Positions 7,253 to 27,500 of a stretch of 64,000 nt of DNA are shown here, piece by piece. The number at the start of each line of letters is the position of its first letter. The first letter of the stretch is position 1. The DNA comes from Lepidurus packardi (taxonomy: Eukaryota; Arthropoda; Branchiopoda; Notostraca; Triopsidae): positions 11,920,024 to 11,984,023 of the forward strand of contig JAKZAN010000001.1 of the NCBI GenBank assembly GCA_023053545.1, in the 5' to 3' direction. The position numbers and the translations under genes were made by a program. The notes under the pieces are model-generated. The model did not search any database. It saw nothing but the letters and a program-made list of their open reading frames with translations, and was not told the origin of the DNA.

Positions 7253-8635
7253 GCGTTGCTTGAATCCACGTTTAGATATAAAAACAAGGGTCAGGTTGCA
7301 ATTTGGAGTTGCAATATCGATAGAAATTTGGAATTTTCGATAGAAATGGGGGGTTTTATTAGGGCTATTTTAGGATGATTTGTAGTTTAAGTTTCAGAGG
7401 GTTGGGGGACTACAATAGAGGCGTTAGATTTTGGTCAACCAGGAATTGAGGGATTGAGCATTTAGCTTTTACAGGAATGCGAGTATCTTCAGCTGGCTGT
7501 GGCACTGGCAGTTCCCCCCTATTAGGAAGTTTCTCAATAGAATGAACGGCTGGAAGTCACTCGGGCTACTTGAAGAGAGGAAGTTTGCCACAATAGTTCA
7601 CTGACAACAGTTAAAAGACTTTTTAGGAGGGGGAAAGACCAACTGACTAAATAGTACGACTAAAAAGGGGGGGGGGGGGAATTACTCTCTTTTACCTTTT
7701 ACCAAAAGTCAGACCCACCAATGGGCCGTTTTGGGGCAGGGGTTTCCTAGAGGAGTACTACTTTTATTCACGAACTCATGAAAAGCGTTGTGAATCAAAA
7801 GGGCCCCAAGACCCCTGCGTCGTCGGGAGAATAGGAAAGGCAAAACTTGATGGGGAAACTGATCACACAAAGAGAGAGAGAGAGCTCAATGAATTGAGTG
7901 TGAAACCTATACCATTGTTAAAAGCTGGCTGAGTAACATGAACTTCTCGAATAAATCGATTAATCCCGTATAATTTATACATATGGGCCGTCCAATAAGT
8001 CATCTTCTCTATCCCCGGCTAACTTGCGTACAACTTTCGGGTTGCAAAGTTGGAACTAATAGTCTTAGTTAGGCATTAAACGAGTTTCTTTGGTTCCAAA
8101 AAGTCTCCACAGAGCTGAATTTCCAGTAATATGGTGCTTTTTCTGAACCTAGGCTTTTACTTAGCCTTCGTTTAGGTTGAAAAGATCCACTGGAAGTTAA
8201 AGATACAGGACGGTTTCTAACTCAAGTCAAAAGAGGAAGAGAAACTTCACACCCTACATGTATACAACCTATACCCTATATAGGGTCTTGAATAGACCAG
8301 AGGACGAAGATCCTAAAGTCTGAAAAAAGAAGGGGCCGGGCCGGAAGTTCTTAAAAAGGGAAGAGACATTACATTTCTTTGTCCTATTGAGAAGTAAACT
8401 GTGTATAGGAAATGGTTTCTGGGGGATCTTCCAAAAGGAATGAGGTTGAGCTATATCTATGAACTTCTTTTCTGTGATAGTTAAGGAATTTTAACATGAA
8501 ATGGGCAGTTTGCGTGTAGTTTAGTATAAGTACAGTACTTTCCGCGTTGGGAAGTCATTTTTCTCAAGTAATTGTAATTTATTTCATTTTCTTTCTTTTT
8601 TTTGGCGTTTTTGTGGCATTTTGTTGGCTCTATAG

Positions 8636-11100
8636 GTCGTAAGAAATTGGACCCGTCTTGCTGTCCAGCGTGTAGCATAACTCTGCGCCCTGGCGATGTG
8701 CACATGCATTTGGCTCAGGAAATCGAGCGTCTGGATCGACTCACACGTACTTATGGTGCAGGACATCGGCAGAGCCCTAATACCACTAGCGGAGCAGCTT
8801 CTTGTAGCAAAAAGGACAATGCGTCAGACTCGAGATGGGAGGTAAGTTATCCTTTGCAAGTGTTTGGAACTAGTAGCCAAAAAAAAACTGGGGAAAAAAG
8901 GGGAAAAAGAAAAAAAACAGAAGGAAAGTTTCTTAAGGGGGATGCTTTTTTCTTTGTTTTTTTTGTTGTTTTTTTTTTTTTTTGGTGCTTAGACATACCA
9001 TCGCGTGCGAACCAATCGCCAGAGTCGAGTACGTGCCAAGACGCGCAAGCGGCGTATGGATGCGGAAGAATCCGATGAGGGATTGGCGTCGGGGACGCCT
9101 GCGTCGGACTCAAATGGGGCGGTACTTACTAGGACAGCTTGCCCCATATGTGGAGACAGACTAGTCGGCATGCCTGATCAATTAAACGCTCACGTAGTCC
9201 AATGCCTGAGGAAGGTAAATTTAGTTACCAGATTTTTAACATTTTATTGTCCTGCATTTGAAGTTGCCATTTTGTGTTGTTTTTTAAACATGTTGAATAT
9301 TTATGGGAATGATTCTTATAGCAGGAGGGCATGAAAGGAGAGGAAGATGAGCAGCTAGATGTGGAAGGAGATGCCGGCCAATTAGGAGATGCTTATGAAG
9401 AATATGAATGGGCGGGACAGAAACGAGTCAGAACCAGTACCTTATTGCAAGGTGGATTTGCTGGTAAGTTTTTGTTATGGTTTTATTGCAGTGGATTTAG
9501 CCACGTAAAGTACTTTAGGCTTAAAATATAACTCGATAATCAAGTTTTCCACGATATTTTTCTTTCTATTGTACGCCAATTAGTGACTGAGATATTAATA
9601 GATAGTGTTAGTAATAGTCACATCACGTGATTGGATGATGCCCAAGGCCAGCCTCCACGGCACTTACTCTGTTTGCTGCTTTGCCGTTGAAGTACAAGTT
9701 TTAAATAAATAATAACCTACGGCTATACTGTTTGTCCATTTTATTACATCGTGAAAAAACTTAGTTGGATTATTTGTTAAACTTGAAATAGGAAAGCTAA
9801 CCCGATATGTAGTTTCGAGTGATAGTTTTCTTTTCCTCTTGCGGAATCAGTACTTAAAGCTATTAAAGAACGCAATTAGAAAAGGGTAGTCATGTCTTCC
9901 TGACGTCATGGACGTACCCGAGAACTTTGTTTACTGTTTTTAAGCATGAAAGTCAAAAGTTAACCGTTGTAATCAAGTGCCGTCAACCCACGCCATCTTA
10001 CGGCTATGACGTCATGGTCACGAGTTTCAATAGCATCAGACGGTTAACGGCTTTATTTAAATCGTCTTTCGTAGAATGGTATGGATTACAGCATAAGTAT
10101 TCATCAACATTTCAGCGTGTAATTGTGGTACTTTTATATTTCAAGAGCTTATTTATTTAAAACTATGCAGACTTTTAAAAAGGATTAAAAACTTCTTGAA
10201 GTAATGTAGAATATACGCAAAGAGTAAAGAAGTTAATTTTTCATAGCTAAGGAATACAAATAAATAAAATATTCAGGAATAGAGTTAAAAAGAAAATTAA
10301 ATAAATTTGATTTTTTGTAGCGTTGGGCCTGCAGACGTGTAAGAAAGAAGAAGAGGATGACTGTGATGTTGTTGTGGACGGCGATGAGGCGGTTTATGGC
10401 ACTCCTCAGTATACAGAGTCCGATGTGATGACTAGCGTGAGCGAAGTCAATGAAAGCACTGTGAATCATCCGGAAACCATCACGAAGTATTACTTCTTAT
10501 TTTTCATTTGTCTTTAAACAAGTTGGTGGAATTAATCATATTTTTTCTTTAATCCTAGTGGGACTGCATCGGCAGCGAGTCTGAATGAAGAATCTCAACA
10601 TTCTAGCAGTGACTATGGAGTTGATTCTCAGTCAGTTGCAGTCAAATCCAAGCACAACCATTGGTTACCAGGCTTAGGTCCGGGAGAAGGCGCCGATGAG
10701 CAGAATTTCACCCCTCCAGTACAGCAAATACTCGATGCTCTTAAGCAAAGGATATCACAACTTGAAGATGAGACCAAAGAAGTCAAAGATAAATTCAAAT
10801 GCCTGATATGTTTGGTAAGTTCTTGTTTTAATACCAACAAGTAACTTATTTTTAATCTGTTTTCTTGTTGTTTCTTTCATTAGGGTAGTTACAAGCATCC
10901 TTTGGTATCAACAACGTGTTGGCATGTCCATTGCGAAGATTGTTGGCTACAATCATTGGTAAGGGTACTTAATAGATTTAAAATGAGGAAAACATTACTT
11001 AATAATTTCTTTTATTTTCGTTAATTAGGGAGCCAAGAAATTGTGTCCGCAGTGTAGTGTTATTACGTCGCCATCTGGTTTACGAAGGATCTATCTGTGA
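8636..11100 (+). CDS. RNF220: E3 ubiquitin ligase RNF220, C-terminal exons (partial at 5' end)
   Basis: Exons read as 8636-8841, 8993-9214, 9325-9463, 10321-10486, 10559-10814, 10884-10958 and 11029-11100, all with GT-AG junctions and one open frame. The product has the RNF220 layout. A CPAC...H zinc-binding block is followed by QEIERL. Then come a basic stretch (RTNRQSRVRAKTRKRR), a second CPIC...H...C finger, the hallmark EYEWAGQKRVR, and a short coiled coil (ALKQRISQLEDETKEV). A C-terminal C3HC4 RING (CLIC, CWHVHCEDC, CPQC) ends in LRRIYL and stop. The family attaches ubiquitin to nuclear targets such as Sin3B and modulates Wnt/beta-catenin and Hedgehog signalling in vertebrates; target identity here is unknown. 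The exon at 8636 starts with two nucleotides of a split codon, so upstream coding exons are missing from view. AATAAA lies at 11201, 100 nt past the stop. Confidence 0.9.
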
Positions 11101-12870: not shown

Positions 12871-13815
12871 CATTACGCACCAGTCTCTTTGATTTCGTGT
12901 CTAGCGAAAATTTTCGAACGTTTACTAGTAAAAAGATTAAATTGGATAACTGAAAAGTATAACATAATTTCAATATATCAAACGGGGTTTAGACCAGGAA
13001 GAAATACAATAGATCAACTAGTTAGACTGAAGGAGGACGCCTACGAATCTGTCCAGGCGGGAGATTGTACAGCTATACCCCTACTAGATCTTAAACAGGC
13101 ATATGACTCGGTTTGGTCAAGCAAACTATTAGCAAAATTAGGGGAAGTAGGCTTTAAAGGAAAAATATTACAGATTGTACAGGACTTGCTTACGAACAGG
13201 ACAATGGAAGTCAGAATAGGTGCGATGACATCAAGAAAAGTAAGCTTAAGCAAAGGTATACCACAGGGATCAGTTTTGAGTCCATGGCTCTTGAATATTA
13301 TGATTAGTGATTTCCCGACAGATTTGTATAGAATGAACACCTCGATCTATGTAGATGATATGGCCATCTGGACAAGGGACAAAACTTTAGGCAATGCTAT
13401 GAGAAGAATAGCTAACTCAGCGAAAGAGGCAGAAATATGGTGTGATATGAACGGTTTTTAAATAGTAGCCAAAAAAACGAAATGCCTAGTTATAACAAAG
13501 AAAAGAAAGACAGAAACAAAAGCTAAAGTCAAAAACAGAGGAACGGAAATAGAAAAAATAAAAAAAGGAAAATTTTGGGGGATCACTTTCGCCAAAGAAC
13601 TACAATTTAAGCAGCACATGGAAAAGATGAGAGAAAGGGGAATGAAAGCTACCTTAATACTTCAAAAATTGGCAGGGACAAGCTGGAGAGCAAATATAAA
13701 TACAATGCTAACGCTTTATAAGGGACTAGTAAGAGCAAAATTAGAATATGCTTCAATAGTGTTTAAAGACGCCAATAAGATCATGTTAAAACGCATAGAA
13801 ACGGCACAGTTTTGA
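12871..13815 (+). pseudogene. Decayed non-LTR retrotransposon reverse transcriptase (jockey/CR1-like)
   Basis: One frame reads through classic LINE RT blocks: YAPVSLISCLAKIFERLL, TGFRPGRNTIDQL, LDLKQAYDSVW, GIPQGSVLSPWLLNIMI and the catalytic YVDD (SIYVDDMAIW). The 5' end is truncated; an in-frame TAG precedes the first block. The frame is broken by TAA at 13459-13461, yet matching thumb-like sequence (WGITFAKELQFKQHM, LVRAKLEYAS) continues in the same frame to a TGA at 13813. No endonuclease domain, 3' tail or target-site duplication was identified. It is a fragment of a mobile element that encodes RT, inserted between NDUFB11 and the GH31 gene, and cannot be active. Confidence 0.88.
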
Positions 13816-14158: not shown

Positions 14159-17100
14159 TTAATAGCTAATCTTAACTTGCCACTTTACTTTCATTGACAA
14201 TATGGCCGAGCCGGTATTCGTGATATCGAGAACCAGTTTATGCGTAACAGCATCAAAAGAGAAAGACGTGAAGTCTACGGCCGGAGTTTCGTCAACGATT
14301 AATGAAATAGCTGCTGGATTGCTCGGCGCTCCCAGGATCTCAATAGTACCCATCAAAATCGAGTCCCATAATTCTGCTTTGGGAGTCACGATAGCCATGT
14401 TCAGCATTCCAATCTAGTAGAATACAAACATAGATACGATCATTTACGCTGAAATTCACCTTAGAAACAGAGAAAACGAAGGATGAAACAAAGTTATATC
14501 AATACACCCTACTTGTTTTCCGTCGACCATTAAAGTGGTATAGCTAAACTCATAGAAGCTAAAGAGATTGCTAGTAACAGGGTCTTTAACTTCACCATCG
14601 TCCCAATAGAGGTCTCCAAATGCTGTAGGCATTCCTTCTTGGTTATCGCCTAAGGCTACAATGAGCTCAAAATGGTTTTTCCGGCTTCAGACCAACAAAC
14701 ACATATGTAATTATACCTCATTTAGCAGATATATATTCTACCTGAGCATGGTGTTCATACCTGGCTTCTGTGCAGGTAAAATGCTTCCTCCTCGGATATG
14801 CAAGTTGATACTCTCTACGGGCGTTGTTTTGTTAACGTAGCCAACCTTTGCTTCTTTCAGTCCCTATTAAATGTATAACATTAAGATCAACCTGTAAACA
14901 CCTACTTAAATACAGAGTTCATAATCAAGTTAAATGTAAGAAGCACGTATTTACCGTGTAGTAGTCATACCACACGTCGTTGGGTAAATACATTTTCAAG
15001 TCCGTAACTCCTTCATGAACAACAGGCGAAATGAGCAAGGCTGAACCCCACAAGAACTGCTCATCAATCAAGTAAGTCTCATTGTCTAATGGGAACCTAC
15101 AAAATCGTACCCCCAAAAAATCTTATATTATTCTAATCAATTAAATTTTGGAAATGTATGAACGCAACTCATGAAAGAGTGGCCGAAGGACTGTCGACCC
15201 TTGATCGTTCGCATGGTAGAATAGTGTGTACAAGAAAGGCAGTAGGCGGTAGCGAATATCTAAAGCTGTCTTTGAAGCTTGTGCTACAACTTCCCAGACT
15301 CCAGGGTCTTGACGGGTATTTCCTATGCCGTTATGATTGCGAGAAAAGGTGTAGAAAGCTCCTAGTTCCATCCAACGAGCACAGAGTTCTTCAGTGGCAT
15401 TTCCAAAGAACCCACAGATATCCGCGCCGATGTAGGGAATGCCAAAGAGGTTGAATTCCAGGATTCCAATGATAGATTGTTTCATTTGTTCCCAGGTGGA
15501 AGCATTGTCGCCTAACCAATGCCCCGCCCATTTTCCAGAACTTGGGTAAGTGGATCTTGAAATAACCACACTACGCTTCCCAGTAGCTTGTTGAGCAGCC
15601 CTTAAATAATATTTTAAAGACTACGTTATTCGTGAAAAGAAAGGCTAGTTTTGAAAGGTAGTCTTACAGTAAAGTTGATTCTGTTTGAGACCATCCGTAG
15701 AGATTATGCACTTGGTAATGCAAATATTCGTCTTGTTCACCCAGGACGGCTACCATGCACAAGGTTTTATCCGAAATCCTAAAACTGGGTCCTAACTGTG
15801 CTGCCTCTGTAAATTGTTTAAGTTTTTTTCACAATTCTCAGTTCAAAAAGAAAAGCAATACTAGTAACGTATGGCGGGTCATCCCACTTATTGACGGGAC
15901 ATTTCAGGTTCCAGTACGGTAGAGCATCATCTGGCCAATTGAAAGGTTTCTCCATGTTGGTATCAAAGTTGGCAGGTTCATTCATATCCTAGCGGCATGG
16001 AAAGAGTATTGACTTTATTAAACGATGTTACAGTATTGACTTATTGACATATTGAGTATTGACTTAGAAAAATTATATTGAAATAAAAACTAATCTTACA
16101 ATCCAGAGGCCATCGAATTGAAGTGTTTCGCGAAACAAGGTAATCTCATTCGTCCACCATTGTTGGGTTTTGGCTTTAAAGAAATCCGGAAAGGCTACTT
16201 TGCCCTTAGGCCATACCTGTCAAGAATGACAGCATAGGGATTAAGCTTTATTTATCTTTCCGTATTTTTGCTTACGTAGCCCAACATGGTATCATTGGCT
16301 TCTGCGTAATCAGCATCCGGAATTAAGGACCGATTAGCCCATTTGATGAACACGGAGTCAGCTTTGCCCCTGGCATATGTGGGGTACGCTTCTGCGGTCC
16401 AGTTGGTTATAATGGCCGGGTCCAAGATAATGATAAAGCGCAATCCGTCGGTTTTAACCGCTGCCACGTACTCCGATAATCCGGCGTAATTAACGCCATC
16501 TATGGAGAAGTCCTTGCGTTCGTCCATGTAGTCAATATCCACATATTGTATGTCCTAAATGAAGGCAATACATGGTAATACATTATAATCTCACGCATTT
16601 TATCTTTTACGAAGAAAATCAGAAAATTACCTGTGGTACACCATGATCTCGGGTAGTATTGACAGCAATTTGCACGTTTTCCAAACTATTGTAACCATAT
16701 TGAGATAACTGGAAGCCTAGACTCCAATATGGTACCAGGTACGGTCTCCCAATCATATCCGTGTATTGACTAACCACATCCTCGTGGGAAGGACCCATGA
16801 AAACGTAAAACTCCAAGTTTCCTCCAATGGTGCGGTAAACCAATCCAGGATTTGGCAAAGTTTGTATATCTTATTATAATAATAAACAAATAATACTAAT
16901 TAAGCATTCCTTCTAAAAGTGATGCTAAAGAGGAGTCTAACGAAGAGTTCAGGTATTTACCAATGGAGTGACTATTGAAAAAGAAAACGCCATGTGAAGA
17001 GCCATCGTACTCGGTGCATGTGTAGAAAGGATGAGATCCATATAGATTCGTACCTTCCTAAACTCAAAAAATAAACAAAACTGGTATATCAATCCGTAAT

Positions 17101-20100
17101 GTTAAAAAGGGTTGGTGTGCTTATATTTGTGAGTTCCATATGGCGTTAAGTGTTCAATGTTTATGTTTTTCAATCGTAGATGGTGTTGCGATCTAAACGT
17201 AGAAGGTATTTGCTTACCCCTCCAGGAGGTTGATCCCGGGCGAATAATGGCCACAGACGATTGTTCATGTCATGTTTCAAACTATTGTGGGTGTTCTCTC
17301 CAATTCCAAAGAGTCTATCAGAAGGGAGTGTGGTTGCAATCATCAAAAACTGGTCAGCTACGGTTAATCCTCCGATACTGGTATCGAAACTGGGATTGAA
17401 TAGAGATAACGGTTAGGAATCGAAGGATCTTTCAGAAGAGTTCTTGGGAACTTACATGACGGTATTTGTACTGGAACGGACGATTTGTATGGCAAAGGGG
17501 GCGCCTTGGGTGTCGTTAATTAATTGAACTTTGTACAATGGATTACTGGGTGTGGTAGGCACAGTGATGTTCATGGGAACGGGTACTTTGCCAGCATCCG
17601 GTCCCTTAGACTTGTCATAGATCTAATCAGTCAGTAATGAAAGGTTAAGAGCAAATCGTTGTAATCTTTCACGGGATTTTTAATTACTGTGAAACCTAGC
17701 ATTTGATTGCTGTAATACTTGACGTCAAGTACGATTTCCATTGCGTCATCCCCGTAGAGAGACGTGCTTGGGGTGTCCGTGGTAGACATCCGAATTAGAT
17801 TCACTCGCAGTCCGCTGTCACTAGTGGATTGACTGGCAATCTAAGCAGGAAATTAAAGTATAGAAGGGAACTTGATTGAAGGGAATTAAGAGATGTGGTG
17901 GAAGTTGTTACTTTGTAGCCGTATCTTGTGTAGTCTGGTAGATAGCAAGAAGGTGCTCCTTCGTCTTGGGAGGCCCACAGGCAACCAGCTGCTGTACAAG
18001 AGGATTCCGTAACATGGCTGTCTAAGAAAGAGAATAATTCCGCTTCATAAAAGAAAGCCGGTTCAAGTTGATGGAAGGAAACATAGGTTATACGCAAAGA
18101 ATGAAATTGACGAAATCCTACTTCACAGGGGGTGAAAGTCCAGAGAAGACGACATAAGAATTAAGCGGTCTAGGTACAAATAAAATAAGTGTAATATCTC
18201 GAGCAAATCTATACATTCACGCTGTGTCATGTCGGAAAGATATGTATGTATAGTTCATATGGACTGGTATGATGTCATCTACATGTCCTCAATTGGAATG
18301 TGACCCCTAGGGCAGTTATGCTTGGTGCGAGGTCAGTTAGGAAAGGTGAGAGGGAGAGAGCAGTAAGAGTTGAGCGTCAGCACAGTCACGAACGTTAGCT
18401 TTTTGTGCCACACGTATAGAGTCCAATACACGAAATCTTAATACCAGATTTAAGACTAAAAGTCATACCATGGACTATAATTATAATCAAGTGGCTCTGA
18501 ATTTAATGCTATTTTTCATTTATTAAGGTTCACACGATAACTGAGGTGTGGCTTTATCACTGATAAACAGAAGTAGTAACGGATTTTGACGTTAATTCAA
18601 CTGTATTACTAACAATATTTATTCCTGATTTGACCTTCGAAAATGTTGGTTACGTGGTAGTCGCTAAATCTAGTGTGGTTGTAACAGATTTCATGGTGAT
18701 TTTATGCTGCAGTAGCTGTTGGCGGGTTTGTTGATGTCACGGAGTTTGACGCTGGTTCGATTGTAGTTGTTACGGCGTCTGTTGTTGGATCGACTGTAGT
18801 TGTTACAGCGTCTGTTGTTGGTTCGACTGTAGTTGTTGATTCCACTGTAGTTGTTGGTTCGACTGTAGTAGTTGGTTCGACTGTAGTTGTTGGTTCGACT
18901 GTAGTAGTTGATTCGACTGTAGTAGTTGGTTCGACTGTAGTTGTTACGGCGTCTGTTGTTGTTGGTTCGACTGTAGTAGTTGTTACAGCGTCTGTGATTG
19001 GTTCGACTGTAGTAGTTGGTTCGACTGTAGTTGTTGATTCGACTGTAGTAGTTGATTCGACTGTATTAGTTGGTTCGACTGTAGTTGTTACGGCGTCTGT
19101 TGTTGGTTCGAGTGTAGTTGTTACGGCGTCTGTTGTTGGTTCGAGTGTAGTTGTTACGGCGTCTGTTATTGTTGGTTCGACTGTAGTAGTTGGTTCGAGT
19201 GTAGTTGTTACAGGGTCTGTTGTTGGTTCGACTGTAGTTGTTACGGCGTCTGTTGTGGGTTTGACTGTAGTTGTTACGGCGTCTGTTGTTGGTTCGACTG
19301 TAGTTGTTGGTTCGACTGTAGTAGTTGGTTCGACTGTAGTTGTTACGGCGTCTGTTGTGGGTTCGACTGTAGTTGTTACGGCGTCTGTTGTGGGTTCGAC
19401 TGTAGTTGTTACGGCGTCTGTTGTTGGTTCGACTGTAGTTGTTGGTTCGACTGTAGTTGTTGGTTCGACTGTAGTAGTTGGTTCGACTGTAGTTGTTACG
19501 GCGTCTGTTGTGGGTTCAACTGTAGTTGTTACGGCGTCTGTTGTGGGTTTGACTGTAGTTGTTACGGCGTCTGTTGTTGTTGGTTCGACTGTAGTAATTG
19601 GTTCGAGTGTACTTGTTACAGCGTCTGTGGTTGGTTCGACTGTAGTTGTTGGTTCGACTGTAGTAGTTGGTTCGAGTGTAGTTGTTACGGCGTCTGTTAT
19701 TGTTGGTTCGACTGTAGTAGTTGGTTCGACTGTAGTTGTTACGGCGTCTGTTGTGGGTTCGACTGTAGTTGTTACGGCGTCTGTTGTTGGTTCGACTGTA
19801 GTTGTTGGTTCGACTGTAGTAGTTGGTTCGACTGTAGTTGTTACGGCGTCTGTTGTGGGTTCGACTGTAGTTGTTACGGCGTCTGTTGTTGTTGGTTCGA
19901 CTGTAGTAATTGGTTCGAGTGTAGTTGTTACAGTGTCTGTTGTTGGTTCGATTGTAGTTGTTACGGCGTCTGTTGTTGGTTCGACTGTAGTTGTTACGGC
20001 GTCTGTTGTGCGTTCGACTGTAGTAGTTGGTTCGACTGTAGTTGTTACGGCGTCTGTTGTGGGTTCGACTGTAGTTGTTACGGCGTCTGTTGTTGGTTCG

Positions 20101-22929
20101 ACTGTAGTAATTGGTTCGAGTGTAGTTGTTACAGTGTCTGTTGTTGGTTCGATTGTAGTTGTTACGGCGTCTGTTGTTGGTTCGACTGTAGTTGTTACGG
20201 CGTCTGTTGTGCGTTCGACTGTAGTTGTTGGTTCGACTGTAGTTGTTACGGCGTCTGTTGTGGGTTCGACTGTAGTTGTTACGGCGTCTGTTGTGGGTTC
20301 GACTGTAGTTGTTACGGCGTCTGTTGTTGGTTCGACTGTAGTTGTTGGTTCGACTGTAGTAGTTGGTTCGACTGTAGTTGTTACGGCGTCTGTTGTGGGT
20401 TCGACTGTAGTTGTTACGGCGTCTGTTGTGGATTTGACTGTAGTTGTTACGGCGTCTGTTGTTGTTGGTTCGACTGTAGTAATTTGTTCGAGTGTACTTG
20501 TTACAGCGTCTGTGGTTGGTTCGACTGTAGTTGTTGGTTCGACTGTAGTAGTTGGTTCGAGTGTAGTTGTTACGGCGTCTGTTATTGTTGGTTCGACTGT
20601 AGTAGTTGGTTCGAGTGTAGTTGTTACAGGGTCTGTTGTTGGTTCGACTGTAGTTGTTACGGCGTCTGTTGTTGGTTCGACTGTAGTTGTTGGTTCGACT
20701 GTAGTAGTTGGTTCGACTGTAGTTGTTACGGCGTCTGTTGTGGGTTCGACTGTAGTTGTTACGGCGTCTGTTGTTGGTTCGACTGTAGTTGTTGGTTCGA
20801 CTGTAGTAGTTGGTTCGACTGTAGTTGTTACGGCGTCTGTTGTGGGTTCGACTGTAGTTGTTACGGCGTCTGTTGTTGTTGGTTCGACTGTAGTAATTGG
20901 TTCGAGTGTAGTTGTTACAGTGTCTGTTGTTGGTTCGATTGTAGTTGTTACGGCGTCTGTTGTTGGTTCGACTGTAGTTGTTACGGCGTCTGTTGTGCGT
21001 TCGACTGTAGTTGTTGGTTCGACTGTAGTTGTTACGGCGTCTGTTGTGGGTTCGACTGTAGTTGTTACGGCGTCTGTTGTTGTTGGTTCGACTGTAGTAA
21101 TTGGTTCGAGTGTAGTTGTTACAGTGTCTGTTGTTGGTTCGATTGTAGTTGTTACGGCGTCTGTTGTTGGTTCGACTGTAGTTGTTACGGCGTCTGTTGT
21201 GCGTTCGACTGTAGTTGTTACGGCGTCTGTTGTGGGTTCGACTGTAGTTACGGCGTCTGTTGTTGTTGGTTCGACTGTAGTTGTTACGGCGTCTGTTGTT
21301 GGTTCGACTGTAGTTGTTGGTTCGACTGTAGTAATTGGTTCGACTGTAGTTGTTACGGCGTCTGTTGTTGGTTCGACTGTAGTTGTTACGTCGTCTGTTG
21401 TTGGTTCGAGTGTAGTTGTTACGTCGTCTGTTGTTGGTTCGAGTGTAGTTGTTACGGCGTCTGTTGTTGACTCTACTGCATTCGTCATTGTAGTAGTTAT
21501 CGTTGTTTCAACAGTAGTAGTAACACGTTCAGTCGTCTTGCCGTCTGTGCTAGAGCTACTTGCATAGTCTTGAGTAGTGCTTGTGGTCTCCATCGGTGTA
21601 GTGGTCGTCGTTGGAGTAACAGTCCGTGGAGTAACCGATGTAGGTCTATAATCCTCTTGGGTCAACACTACACTAGGCACAATGATAACCACTGCCGCTA
21701 TGACGGTAACACCGCTGGCAATCAAAATCTTGGTCAACTTCGTTAATTTCATGTTGAATTAAATCAAGAAAATTTCTTCCTTAAACCCCTCTCGCCCTCG
21801 TCCCTAGCTGATATTCAATTATTAACTGTCTGCCCTATCACAAGTTCACCTTGTCCTAATATAGCCAGCTTCTTGTATATCAGCTAGATTTCATGAAAAC
21901 GATAAGTTTTTAACTTTCAATCTTCATATTTGACGGTTATCAGACTATACAGTACGTAGCAAACGATCCCAAGCCTCCTATATAGGTTTTAAAACTCCAC
22001 TGATAAAACTATCGAAACGTTATCGCCTATGTAGCACACAACTATTGCCGTAACCACAGGCCGTAACTCCAGTCGAACCAACAAAAGACGCTGCAACAAC
22101 TACGGTCGGCAAAAAACTAATATTTTCCTTGTTATATTATCTCTCTTGTGTTATTTCTCTTATCTCCTTAATTCCACAAACCATTTGAAAACGAAAGAGT
22201 AATGGAATTCGCCCAAGCCAATACTAAAGCAGCATTCCCAGAGGAGATATGAGCTTTAGATTCCTTATATCAAATCCAGTTAGCTTTACGTAGGTTTCGA
22301 TCCCTCGTGTTCAGAAACATTTCATTCTTACGTATGTAGCCCCAATCCAGATTTTCGTTACCTCTCCTATACTGCACATGCTATAACGTGAGAAATCAAT
22401 ACCCTGTTTTGCAGATAGACGCAACGTATTTTATTGACAAGGAAAAGGATTATATGAGTCATAGTTCAAATGTTCCCTTATCCAGAAAATCAGAAGCACA
22501 ATTTCTTTCAGATTTCTTTATCTTCATCATTAACTACGTGTTAAGGATCTTGCTCAAGCCTTCTTATAAATCCCTCGAGATGTCTTTTATCATTTAGTCC
22601 AAGGTTCAGAACCGTTACATGAATTTGAATGCTACATTCATCGCCATCTAGCGGCTACGATGTACTGCCCCTTCCGCATTCAGAATCACTTAAAACAGAT
22701 ATCTCCCAGAAATATTTATAGATTATGGGACCTTACCTAATGGGAAGCAAGCAATGGAAATAGCCAAGTCCTGGGAATCTCCCTCCCTCGCCGACAATAC
22801 AACCGCAATAGGCACCGCAATCGCTGCTAGTAGCACTATGAGGAAAACTGTGTACATTATAACCTTCTTGGTGGAACCCGAAGAGCTTCCTTCGGACTCC
22901 GGTGTGGTAGTAACGTCGAACCCCTTCAT
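14159..22929 (-). CDS. GH31 alpha-glucosidase, membrane-anchored with trefoil domain (maltase-glucoamylase/sucrase-isomaltase-like)
   Basis: Sixteen exons: 22737-22929, 17912-18021, 17688-17840, 17456-17622, 17218-17389, 16961-17057, 16631-16869, 16276-16554, 16100-16216, 15862-15988, 15668-15803, 15169-15600, 14955-15096, 14742-14863, 14513-14684, 14159-14413. They total 2913 nt, 970 aa, with phases matching at every junction. Residues 1-22 are cytoplasmic and about 23-47 form a signal anchor (type II). A trefoil (P-type) domain spans about 61-97, and then the GH31 barrel. The retaining nucleophile is Asp510 in WIDMNEPANF and the acid/base is Asp628 in HWLGDN. RNHN, WDDG and a C-terminal beta domain follow. 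The enzyme releases glucose from the non-reducing ends of maltose and starch oligosaccharides at the cell surface, probably gut. The trefoil lacks one disulfide pair. Intron 1 is 4715 bp and contains another gene; the other introns are about 50-150 bp. Confidence 0.92.
18022..18701. other. 3' part of GH31 intron 1, downstream of the mucin gene
   Basis: No exon seen. It carries TTTATT at 18618-18623, AATAAA on the minus strand 79 nt past the mucin stop, and ends in a good acceptor tract (TTCTCTTTCTTAG on the minus strand) for GH31 exon 2. Confidence 0.5.
18618..18623 (-). terminator. Polyadenylation signal of the nested mucin gene
   Basis: AATAAA on the minus strand, 79 nt after the mucin-like stop codon and inside the GH31 intron. 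It supports a separate transcript end rather than splicing into GH31. Confidence 0.5.
18702..21752 (-). CDS. Thr-rich mucin-like single-pass protein, intronless, nested in GH31 intron 1
   Basis: One exon encodes 1016 aa. Residues 1-10 are basic (MKLTKLTKIL), about 9-32 are hydrophobic (IASGVTVIAAVVIIVPSVV), and the rest is a Cys-free tract built from two interleaved units. These are 11 residues (TTDAVTTTVEP) and 6 residues (TTTVEP), with rare variants DTV, IEP, LEP, VER and KPT. It ends ASNSVTSTNPPTATAA. Thr makes up about half of the tract and Glu-Pro recurs, so dense O-glycosylation is expected. The topology is a signal anchor or uncleaved signal with an extracellular rod, as in epithelial or peritrophic mucins. 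No chitin-binding or catalytic domain is visible. The other strand is also open over the repeat, but only this frame has an ATG, a hydrophobic head and a sensible composition. Whether it is expressed cannot be told from sequence. Confidence 0.75.
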   Translation of the reverse strand: MKLTKLTKILIASGVTVIAAVVIIVPSVVLTQEDYRPTSVTPRTVTPTTTTTPMETTSTTQDYASSSSTDGKTTERVTTTVETTITTTMTNAVESTTDAVTTTLEPTTDDVTTTLEPTTDDVTTTVEPTTDAVTTTVEPITTVEPTTTVEPTTDAVTTTVEPTTTDAVTTVEPTTDAVTTTVERTTDAVTTTVEPTTDAVTTTIEPTTDTVTTTLEPITTVEPTTTDAVTTTVEPTTDAVTTTVEPTTTVERTTDAVTTTVEPTTDAVTTTIEPTTDTVTTTLEPITTVEPTTTDAVTTTVEPTTDAVTTTVEPTTTVEPTTTVEPTTDAVTTTVEPTTDAVTTTVEPTTTVEPTTTVEPTTDAVTTTVEPTTDPVTTTLEPTTTVEPTITDAVTTTLEPTTTVEPTTTVEPTTDAVTSTLEQITTVEPTTTDAVTTTVKSTTDAVTTTVEPTTDAVTTTVEPTTTVEPTTTVEPTTDAVTTTVEPTTDAVTTTVEPTTDAVTTTVEPTTTVERTTDAVTTTVEPTTDAVTTTIEPTTDTVTTTLEPITTVEPTTDAVTTTVEPTTDAVTTTVEPTTTVERTTDAVTTTVEPTTDAVTTTIEPTTDTVTTTLEPITTVEPTTTDAVTTTVEPTTDAVTTTVEPTTTVEPTTTVEPTTDAVTTTVEPTTDAVTTTVEPTTTVEPTITDAVTTTLEPTTTVEPTTTVEPTTDAVTSTLEPITTVEPTTTDAVTTTVKPTTDAVTTTVEPTTDAVTTTVEPTTTVEPTTTVEPTTTVEPTTDAVTTTVEPTTDAVTTTVEPTTDAVTTTVEPTTTVEPTTTVEPTTDAVTTTVKPTTDAVTTTVEPTTDPVTTTLEPTTTVEPTITDAVTTTLEPTTDAVTTTLEPTTDAVTTTVEPTNTVESTTTVESTTTVEPTTTVEPITDAVTTTTVEPTTTDAVTTTVEPTTTVESTTTVEPTTTVEPTTTVEPTTTVESTTTVEPTTDAVTTTVDPTTDAVTTTIEPASNSVTSTNPPTATAA
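18760..21475. repeat. 33-bp/18-bp minisatellite coding for the mucin tract, with higher-order repeats
   Basis: On the plus strand the unit reads GTTACGGCGTCTGTTGTTGG plus TTCGACTGTAGTT, interspersed with GTTGGTTCGACTGTAGTA units. A longer block is present four times, near 19.88, 20.09, 20.87 and 21.08 kb. It contains GTAATTGGTTCGAGTGTAG, then ACAGTGTCTGTTGTTGG, GGTTCGATTGTAG and GTGCGTTCGACTG, so segments of more than 100 bp have been duplicated on top of the basic units. Confidence 0.9.
21753..22736. other. 5' part of GH31 intron 1, upstream of the mucin gene
   Basis: No exon seen. This should hold the mucin gene promoter; a TATATAGG palindrome lies near 21978, about 225 bp upstream of the mucin ATG, and is only weak evidence. 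A CTCF-like CGCCATCTAGCGGC site is at 22642. Confidence 0.4.
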
Positions 22930-24502: not shown

Positions 24503-27500
24503 CAACAGGTTGACGAGGTTTCTCACTCCTCGTTCGTTCAAGCCTTGTTCGTTCACTATTCTCAGCATCGGAAGCATTCTTGGAGCTTGTTCCTGTTTCT
24601 AACGCGTCTCCCAATTGTACAAACTTTGTCTTGAGACTCTGCGCCCTGGCATGGAACTTGCCTAAGGCTTTACTCAGGGCTTTGTTCGCCAAAGGCGACC
24701 CTGTCCATACTTCAGCCCCAGGCCTTGGTCCTTCGGTGAGATTAATAGAAGCTGCGATTGCATCTATATCGACTCCTACCGGCGTTGAACTAAAACTAGT
24801 ACCTGTGGCTGCCACTGTAGATACCCCACTCCCGTTTTCTGAAACAACACAAACTTATTTTCCGAGAACGGGACTCTTGCTAGACACTTACCTTTCGAAC
24901 ACTTGAACTCGCCTTCTAGTGGTAAGCTTCCCAAGCTGGAAATCCTCTTGACTCCTCTAGGTGGCGCGATAGGCGGCCTGGAAATATCTACCACCAATCG
25001 CTTACACGGCGGATCTGGCGGAGCTTGATACTTGGGCGGTTCCCTTCGTGCCTTTCTGTTGTTTTCATTGGAGGTAGAGCCACTTTCAGTTGGTAAAGTG
25101 ACATACAAGGTGGCCGGTGTCGCCGCCAAACTTTTCTTTTTGTTGACTACCTCCGTTTTGAAATTACCATCTATCGGCGATGGATAGAAATAAGATGACA
25201 TGACCTTCTTCCCGGTAGCAGGCGACTTAAGGGTGAGGGGAACCTTGTTCGAAGACTGTTCGGCCCGCATAGGCGGTTGTGGGTAGTTAACATACGGCGG
25301 TTTGCGAACCGCGGCTGGTGACGACACAGCCGATTGCTTCTTGATCTTGGCATAGTCGTCCCTAGTGCGCGTTACCGGATCCGCGACTTTCAACTCACTC
25401 AAGAGATGGCTAATCTCCCCGGACTTCTGTACAAAGATGGCTTCCTTGTTCACCAACTTGGAGTAGTCTAGATTCCGCGCTTCGGTTAGCTGCGCTTGGG
25501 AAACAGGTTGTGCGTTCGAGACCTGGATTCCGCGCTTAACGGACGGAAGATTCACATAAACCGGCTCCATGGCCACCGGTGCAGGTGCGTTACTGTCCAC
25601 CTCATCTTCTTCATGTTCTCCTCCTTCTTCCTGGCTTTGTTCCATCGCTGCCTTGCCGCTCAGCCAGATGGCTTCGTAGTCGTTCGCGTTCTTGGTCTTG
25701 ACAGGCGACGGTTGACTTTCCAACGTTTTATCCGACGACCCTACCAATACTGCTTGTTTAAAGCTATCCCGTCGCTGGCGCTGCCTTCCTTCCGCCGGAT
25801 TAGCTCCTCCTACCAACTTGGCCAGCCTTTCCTGCGCATCCCGTGCCAATTGCGCGAAATCCGGCGCCGATTCCATGGTAACAGCATGAACTTTGGCCGG
25901 ACTGCTCAGGGGCGACTTTTTCTTCTCGTTGATTAACCATTTGGCGGGTAACGGTGAGTCATCCGCCAAATACGCCTGACAGTTCTTTAGTACTTGCCGC
26001 GCGTCATCGTCCAGCGCACTCGGAACGCGTTGAGAAGTACTATGGGTGGCTTGGGAGCGTTTTAAAAGCGGCACATTCGAGTACAGGGACGCGCTACCAC
26101 TAGATGGCGGTGATATCGCGCTCACGTACTGCGGAATGGGTCGTAAATCCTTAACCGGCGCCGACTCCGCCTTAAAGATCGGCACCGCCTTCGCTTCCGT
26201 TCGCTGAACTTCGCAAGACTCTTTAGAATCTTCGATTTTCAGTACCCGGTCCAACGACCCACACGTACCCGACCACATGGACTCCTTATAGTCCACCAAA
26301 TCGGATTTTGCCTCCGGTTTCACGTACTTACTCTCCCTGCCTCGATCCAAGCTGCTAATCACCAAGTTCTTACCGGAATTTACACACTTAGTCGCAAGAT
26401 TCCGCGGTTTGGACGAGGAAGGTTCGCGACTAACGTACGCGAAGGACGGTGGGGTGATAACCTCCACTTCGGCAGGTTCTACCATTTTTTTCCGCTGTTC
26501 CAGATCGAAATCCCGGTACACCTTCATGGATTTGCTGCGTTTGATCGGTAGAATCGGTTTTTCCTCCCCGGAATGTGTCACTTCCGCTTCCAAGTCCGCG
26601 TGGAACTCGGAGGCAAGCGACAGTTTCGGCGGATGGCAGAATTCCTTGAACTCAATGATCTTTAAACCGTCTTTGCTGCCTTTCAAGTGCTCCTCCCGGA
26701 GCCGGAAGGAATTGGCCTTCTTAATCGAGCTCTTTTTGGTCGCTTTCTTCTCCGGAGATGAGGAATTCCGCGGTTCTGAGGAGGATTTCTCGAACAGGGC
26801 TTTCAGCTTGAGAATACTCGGTCGCCGGATCAAACTGGACTTAGCAGCGATGGACAAAACGGATTCTTTCCCATCAGAAGACTCTTTGAGCGTCCGATTT
26901 CGGTTCACGTCCATTTCTGGACTCGGATTCCGCTCTACGCTCACTTCCGGGACAGGAACCGGGGCTAGGATCGGTTTAGGAGGCATAATAGCGAGATGAG
27001 GCTTGGGTTTCGGGAGATTACTTTGATTGGCGAGCGTGGCGTGCAGTTGAACGACTGGCCAAGGCAAATTCTCGGAATCCGTGTCCTCGCAGACGTCATC
27101 TTGCTCGCTCACTTCAAACACCATCGATTCTATCCCTTTTTACACATAAAAAAAGATGGAAGAAACGTTAAAATCGACGATTAGCTCCAGAAAAACTAAA
27201 ATAAATCCCAAAAATACCGGTTTCTTGGTTTTGGATGAAGATCGTTTCGTAATTGGGGTCAATTTTCTGGACAGGGGTGATCAAAGGTCTTCCGTGAAGG
27301 TCAAGGTTCTCGTACGGATGCGCATCGATCATTTTCAACTGATCTAAAAACAGTTCTCTCACAGCCCGATGTACTAGAATGTACTGTTCTTTGGTTTGCA
27401 CCATTGCAATCCGTTGCTTACGCATATCGCTAATCAACGTATAGAGGCTGAAGTCCACATTCAATTTCTAATAACGGAAAACAAAGCCATTAAGACATTT

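Follow-up and report, generated by a model that had tools for sequence, protein, structure and literature searches.

The first intron of an intact GH31 alpha-glucosidase gene of Lepidurus packardi contains, on the same strand, a complete mucin-like open reading frame (ORF), and the arrangement is best read as two separate genes, the mucin nested within the glucosidase, which we consider likely. All coordinates refer to the window, by which we mean the whole stretch of DNA that was analyzed (64,000 nucleotides of contig JAKZAN010000001.1, positions 11,920,024 to 11,984,023), unless another contig is named, and the features are collected in Table 1. An earlier note on this DNA had described the nesting and had placed the mucin where a stalk of the glucosidase would be encoded; its observation was partly confirmed and its interpretation partly supported.

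Under the two-gene reading, the outer gene would encode a GH31 alpha-glucosidase that resembles maltase-glucoamylase and sucrase-isomaltase and has a type II membrane anchor, and splicing of its transcript would remove all 4.7 kb of intron 1. That intron would contain a second, independent gene of a single exon, probably transcribed separately from its own promoter to its own poly(A) site; its product would be a mucin-like protein, rich in Thr and anchored in the membrane, from a small family of this genome. The mucin would presumably be heavily O-glycosylated and located at the gut or another epithelial surface, and the two proteins would be functionally unlinked, with DNA alone in common.

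Table 1. Features of the GH31 gene and of its first intron (window coordinates; a slash marks a splice point).
Feature	Coordinates	Strand	Details
GH31 exon 1	22737..22929	-	Cytoplasmic tail, membrane anchor, and IACFPL, the six residues that open the trefoil match, with the first trefoil Cys among them
GH31 intron 1	18022..22736	-	4715 bp
GH31 exon 2	17912..18021	-	Remainder of trefoil domain; acceptor TTTCTTAG/ACAGCC
GH31 exons 3 to last	14159..17840	-	Mutarotase-like domain, TIM barrel with WIDMNEP, C-terminal domain, stop
Mucin-like ORF, single exon	18702..21752	-	1016 aa: anchor plus 100 repeat units, 451 Thr
Mucin N-terminal signal anchor	21651..21752	-	MKLTKLTKILIASGVTVIAAVVIIVPSVVLTQED; five related anchors in the genome
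Best phase-1 GT in the mucin ORF	21558..21559	-	CAA/GTAGCT, last exon base 21560; would allow an in-frame join of mucin anchor to exon 2
TATATA	21979..21984	-	232 nt upstream of the mucin ATG
AATAAA	18618..18623	-	Begins 79 nt past the mucin stop
Second AATAAA	18524..18519	-	Downstream of the mucin stop
Third intronic AATAAA	at 22435	-	Upstream of the mucin
Solo LTR	18265..18470		206 bp; TGGTAT...ATACCA; 5-bp duplications GTCCA at 18471-18475 and 18260-18264
Inverted array piece	22065..22108	+	44 bp, complementary to the array at up to 91%; lies upstream of the mucin start codon

The outer gene and the position of its first intron

The GH31 gene runs from 22929 to 14159 on the minus strand in 16-17 exons. 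The 17-exon model gives a single open frame of 975 aa with GT-AG splice sites and a final stop; a 12-nt exon (14459..14448) is optional and perhaps spurious, and the frame is kept without it. A single donor is weak (GTTGCG, score 0.9), with the remaining donors scoring 3.8-9.0. Introns 2 to 16, the other 15 of the model, measure 34-160 bp, compared with 4715 bp for intron 1. Pfam searches of the product retrieved the TIM barrel (9.7e-101) together with C-terminal, mutarotase-like and trefoil domains, all above their cut-offs, and its best solved relatives are maltase-glucoamylases, the top chain being 9kz6 with 1341.6 bits summed over the two GH31 units of that chain. The type II anchor (topology assigned by eye), the trefoil and the GH31 catalytic core with its WIDMNE motif, which we take to be the GH31 nucleophile motif, are held in common with maltase-glucoamylase and sucrase-isomaltase; the outer-gene model differs from these in having one GH31 unit instead of two and in that its trefoil coding is interrupted by the 4.7-kb intron.

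Exon 1 belongs to this gene and not to another one, since an alignment of the product to maltase-glucoamylase 3ton (residues 58-960) spans the exon 1/2 junction and pairs SIACFPL of exon 1 with KIDCYPD; moreover, the frame of exon 2, followed upstream from the exon, reaches a stop without passing an ATG. The in-phase junction claimed in the earlier note also held: exon 1 comprises 64 codons and one base, its donor (TAG/GTAAGG) is in phase 1, and the frame remains open when exon 1 is spliced to exon 2 at 18021 across the intervening 4715 bp.

The placement of the intron relative to the protein domains did not survive comparison with the Pfam match. Exon 1 encodes residues 1-64, and the trefoil match covers residues 59-93, so that the junction at 64/65 lies within the trefoil and follows the first Cys of that domain. 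Intron 1 therefore does not lie between an anchor exon and a trefoil exon, as had been claimed, but splits the trefoil, in agreement with the maltase-glucoamylase alignment, and because it does so the mucin is not found at a position coding for a GH31 stalk. The candidate in which the mucin is itself the stalk exon of the glucosidase was ruled out on the split trefoil together with the in-frame stops of the ORF before its ATG and at its end. A stalk between anchor and trefoil, if there is one, would need to be coded within exon 1. Elsewhere in the genome, five GH31 loci were inspected, and the matches reached the trefoil in two of them. One (L038) has an anchor, recognized by eye, and a trefoil within one open frame, and the other (L041) has a 92-bp intron immediately before the trefoil Cys equivalent to that of exon 1.

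The nested reading frame and its family of anchors

The description of a 1016-aa ORF with its own ATG, signal anchor, stop and AATAAA, inside intron 1 and on the GH31 strand, was confirmed, and the whole coding region lies within this one intron of another gene. An in-frame stop precedes the ATG, with two codons only between them. The product is mucin-like in that an anchor is followed by long Pro/Thr/Ser tandem repeats, its 1016 residues including 99 Pro and 19 Ser in addition to the Thr. The units of the array were parsed by a custom pattern, and every one of the 100 parsed units was a whole number of codons long; the repeat part of 905 residues consists of 41 units of 6 aa, 49 of 11 aa and 10 of 12 aa, with TTTVEP and TTDAVTTTVEP predominating.

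It is rather unlikely, although the array by itself would permit it, that the ORF is an expanded intronic minisatellite, open by accident because its 18-, 33- or 36-bp units contain no stops, and unexpressed. The array can likewise be read from stop to stop in three further frames (955 and 804 codons on the plus strand, 663 in another minus-strand frame), and a stray fragment of it occurs, inverted, upstream of the ATG. Codon variants were tallied in the units of 6 and of 11 aa (90 in total, the 12-aa units excluded), with sites counted as one unit of each length. The distinct variants numbered 6 synonymous and 17 nonsynonymous over approximately 15 synonymous and 36 nonsynonymous sites, or 34 synonymous and 49 nonsynonymous when counted by occurrence. 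With these additional open frames, and without clear constraint on its variants, the array is weak evidence of a gene; taken alone, it has at most weak protein constraint, which is insufficient to prove a gene. Against the minisatellite stand the AATAAA after the stop, the preservation of frame by all of the parsed units and, outside the repeats, an anchor with paralogues under protein-level constraint.

These paralogues were found by searching the L. packardi assembly (108.6 Mb, 344 contigs) with the first 39 aa of the mucin. Five other anchors were matched (E 8.1e-6 to 8.8e-5), three on contig C2, one on C7 and one on C27, all in ORFs outside this GH31 gene and all sharing with the mucin the signal anchor motif VPSVVLTQ[DE]D. 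In four of the five the anchor is followed by a long Thr/Pro repeat stalk of PTEPP units; the remaining copy, at C2:1635663, is short (75 aa). A C-terminal tail, AEAPRVE[KE]VPDSYEYQIGK..., is common to three stalked copies (L057, L058 and L060) and absent from the mucin ORF, and the mucin copy, lacking this family tail, could be truncated or decaying. The frame of the fourth stalked copy (L059) is broken within the stalk in the assembly, with array and flank matches continuing. Contigs C7 and C27 are 25 kb each, with long matches to the C2 copies at 93.6-97.5% identity; their copies may be other haplotypes of the C2 copies, and the distinct other loci could then number three.

Over 32 codons, the mucin anchor compared with each of the five copies gave pS of 0.77-0.80 and pN of 0.26-0.29, and the observed score was reached by 0 of 2000 shuffles of one family anchor, and again by 0 of 2000 when hydropathy was kept. 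The anchor is thus homologous to those of a genome family, and its protein sequence is kept more than its DNA, that is, it is under selection. Because the anchor recurs in five ORFs and pS exceeds pN, the mucin ORF is probably a real gene and not just an open minisatellite.

Descent of the mucin and host GH31 anchors from one ancestor was considered and is not supported: the score of 27 (shuffle mean 25.9) was reached by 39% of shuffles, or 71% with hydropathy kept. For the family anchor against the anchor of the GH31 paralogue L041, the score was reached in 0.3% of shuffles, or 1.65% with hydropathy kept, as one of ten comparisons, and a distant tie between family anchors and GH31 anchors is conceivable. 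Among database searches, a Pfam Apolipoprotein match to the mucin (E 1.8e-24; 86.9 bits, below the cut-off of 90) was taken as a repeat artefact, New_glue on the paralogue L057 scored 13.2 bits, below its cut-off of 31, and NCBIfam gave no match for either the mucin or L057. Decayed copies of the array past the mucin stop were suggested by eye in the translation and set aside, the DNA match not being significant (best E 0.39).

Two further observations concern the paralogues. The stalk arrays at C2:1624150 (L059, the copy with the broken frame) and C27:18467 (L060), possibly allelic, are of very different lengths, and length polymorphism, decay or assembly error are possible explanations. Exons of a GH9 cellulase adjoin two of the anchor-PTEPP stalk ORFs, lying downstream on the same strand approximately 5 kb past the stalk ends (L061, C27:9500-18000; L039/L062 on C2). 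A joining of the mucin exon to the GH9 gene at C27 was judged unlikely, the first GH9 exon being leader-like by eye and approximately 5 kb from the end of the stalk.

Signals in intron 1 and the proposed separation of the two transcripts

The TATATA upstream of the mucin is a possible TATA box. In the sense orientation, intron 1 contains three AATAAA and one ATTAAA as poly(A) motifs, one AATAAA being upstream of the mucin. Such signals also fit a further reading, compatible with that of two genes, in which the host is switched by the gene nested within it: during transcription of the mucin, the mucin promoter and the sense poly(A) signals would end the GH31 RNA early and leave an anchor-only stub. 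The run-on of exon 1 ends in GKVP and a stop, giving a stub frame of 68 aa, and interference with intronic polyadenylation is reported for mouse H13/Mcts2 (PMC13309782). We regard a switch as unlikely, however; intronic poly(A) signals in Drosophila are reported to be silent with the 5' splice site intact and rarely used (PMC3890989).

The element between the mucin and GH31 exon 2 is a solo LTR. Solo LTRs are recognized by TG...CA ends, a target-site duplication and dispersed copies, and all of these were found here, the genome having at least 39 further copies, complete or partial (40 flank matches, one of which is the place itself). The matches are confined to the element, some continuing up to 15 bases past it, and the rest of the flank is unmatched. 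LTR-related copies at a spacing of approximately 4.6 kb were seen on contigs C5 (9223884 on) and C3 (9634777 on), which suggests tandem arrays of a 4.6-kb LTR element. A genome search with the upstream flank of the mucin gave 21 matches and one candidate region, with nothing beyond the flank itself and the array. Rfam at gathering scores gave no match in the whole window, and ARAGORN found no tRNA in it.

Whether the mucin and the glucosidase could be joined by splicing depends on the phase of the available donors. The earlier note had argued against a fusion from phase, and this argument covered the 3' end of the ORF only. Among 163 GT sites in the whole ORF, 153 are in phase 0, 4 in phase 2 and 6 in phase 1, and from the best of these last (Table 1) mucin residues 1-64 could be spliced to exon 2. 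The donor after 21560 would then define an alternative GH31 first exon, and the glucosidase would have another anchor with a short stalk rich in Thr. The score of this donor, 6.2, is within the range of GH31's own donors (0.9-9.0), its phase fits exon 2, and the chimera assembled on paper still has a trefoil above the Pfam cut-off of 21: it scores 27.3 bits, the normal product 28.3, and the sequence from exon 2 onwards 26.0 by itself. Nevertheless, the window has approximately 2.9 donors of this quality per kb of each strand, so that this one is at chance density, the chimera lacks the trefoil Cys that exon 1 supplies, and a fusion leaves the remainder of the 1016-aa ORF unexplained. We consider such an alternative first exon very improbable.

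A broader proposal, which appears quite unlikely, would make the mucin and the glucosidase one regulated unit, in which mucin transcription, aided by the sense poly(A) signals and possibly by the solo LTR, toggles between the full enzyme and the anchor-only stub, or in which the 21560 donor lends the mucin anchor to the enzyme.

Relation to known nested genes and the surrounding DNA

Nesting of this kind is known elsewhere. The mucin-like, repeat-rich Sgs4 of Drosophila lies with four ng ('nested' or 'new glue') genes in an intron of dunce (PMC10835880). This is, as here, a repeat-rich mucin-like gene in an intron of an unrelated enzyme gene; the host gene differs, and Sgs4 is a secreted glue protein, whereas a membrane anchor is predicted for the present mucin. 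The mouse H13/Mcts2 pair also consists of a nested gene within a host, but it differs in being an imprinted mammalian locus with demonstrated interference (PMC13309782). Same-strand overlaps are reported as underrepresented in five metazoan genomes, and 75 parallel against 152 antiparallel nested pairs were counted in human (PMC2330155).

Because of Sgs4/dunce and the other nested-gene precedents, the locus is a tidy fresh example and not a new kind of thing. The mucin/glucosidase pair was unreported in the listed titles or abstract openings of literature on Daphnia mucin, peritrophic and signal anchor proteins and on arthropod nested intronic mucin genes. New in this locus are the solo LTR with its 5-bp duplication between the mucin and exon 2, and the 44-bp inverted array piece upstream. 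The locus shows how a repeat-rich mucin can live within a conserved digestive enzyme gene. Since the same-strand pair is clean and the other host introns are short, interference between host and nested gene could be readable from ordinary long-read RNA.

In the neighbourhood of the GH31 gene, an ORF of 782 aa, for which Pfam gave no match at E 0.01, lies upstream (24776-27124, minus strand). Just downstream, on the opposite strand, is a reverse transcriptase fragment (12889-13461, plus strand; RVT_1, 1.6e-25), and the window further contains an RNF220-like exon (8578-9078, plus strand; PF15926, 5.8e-11).
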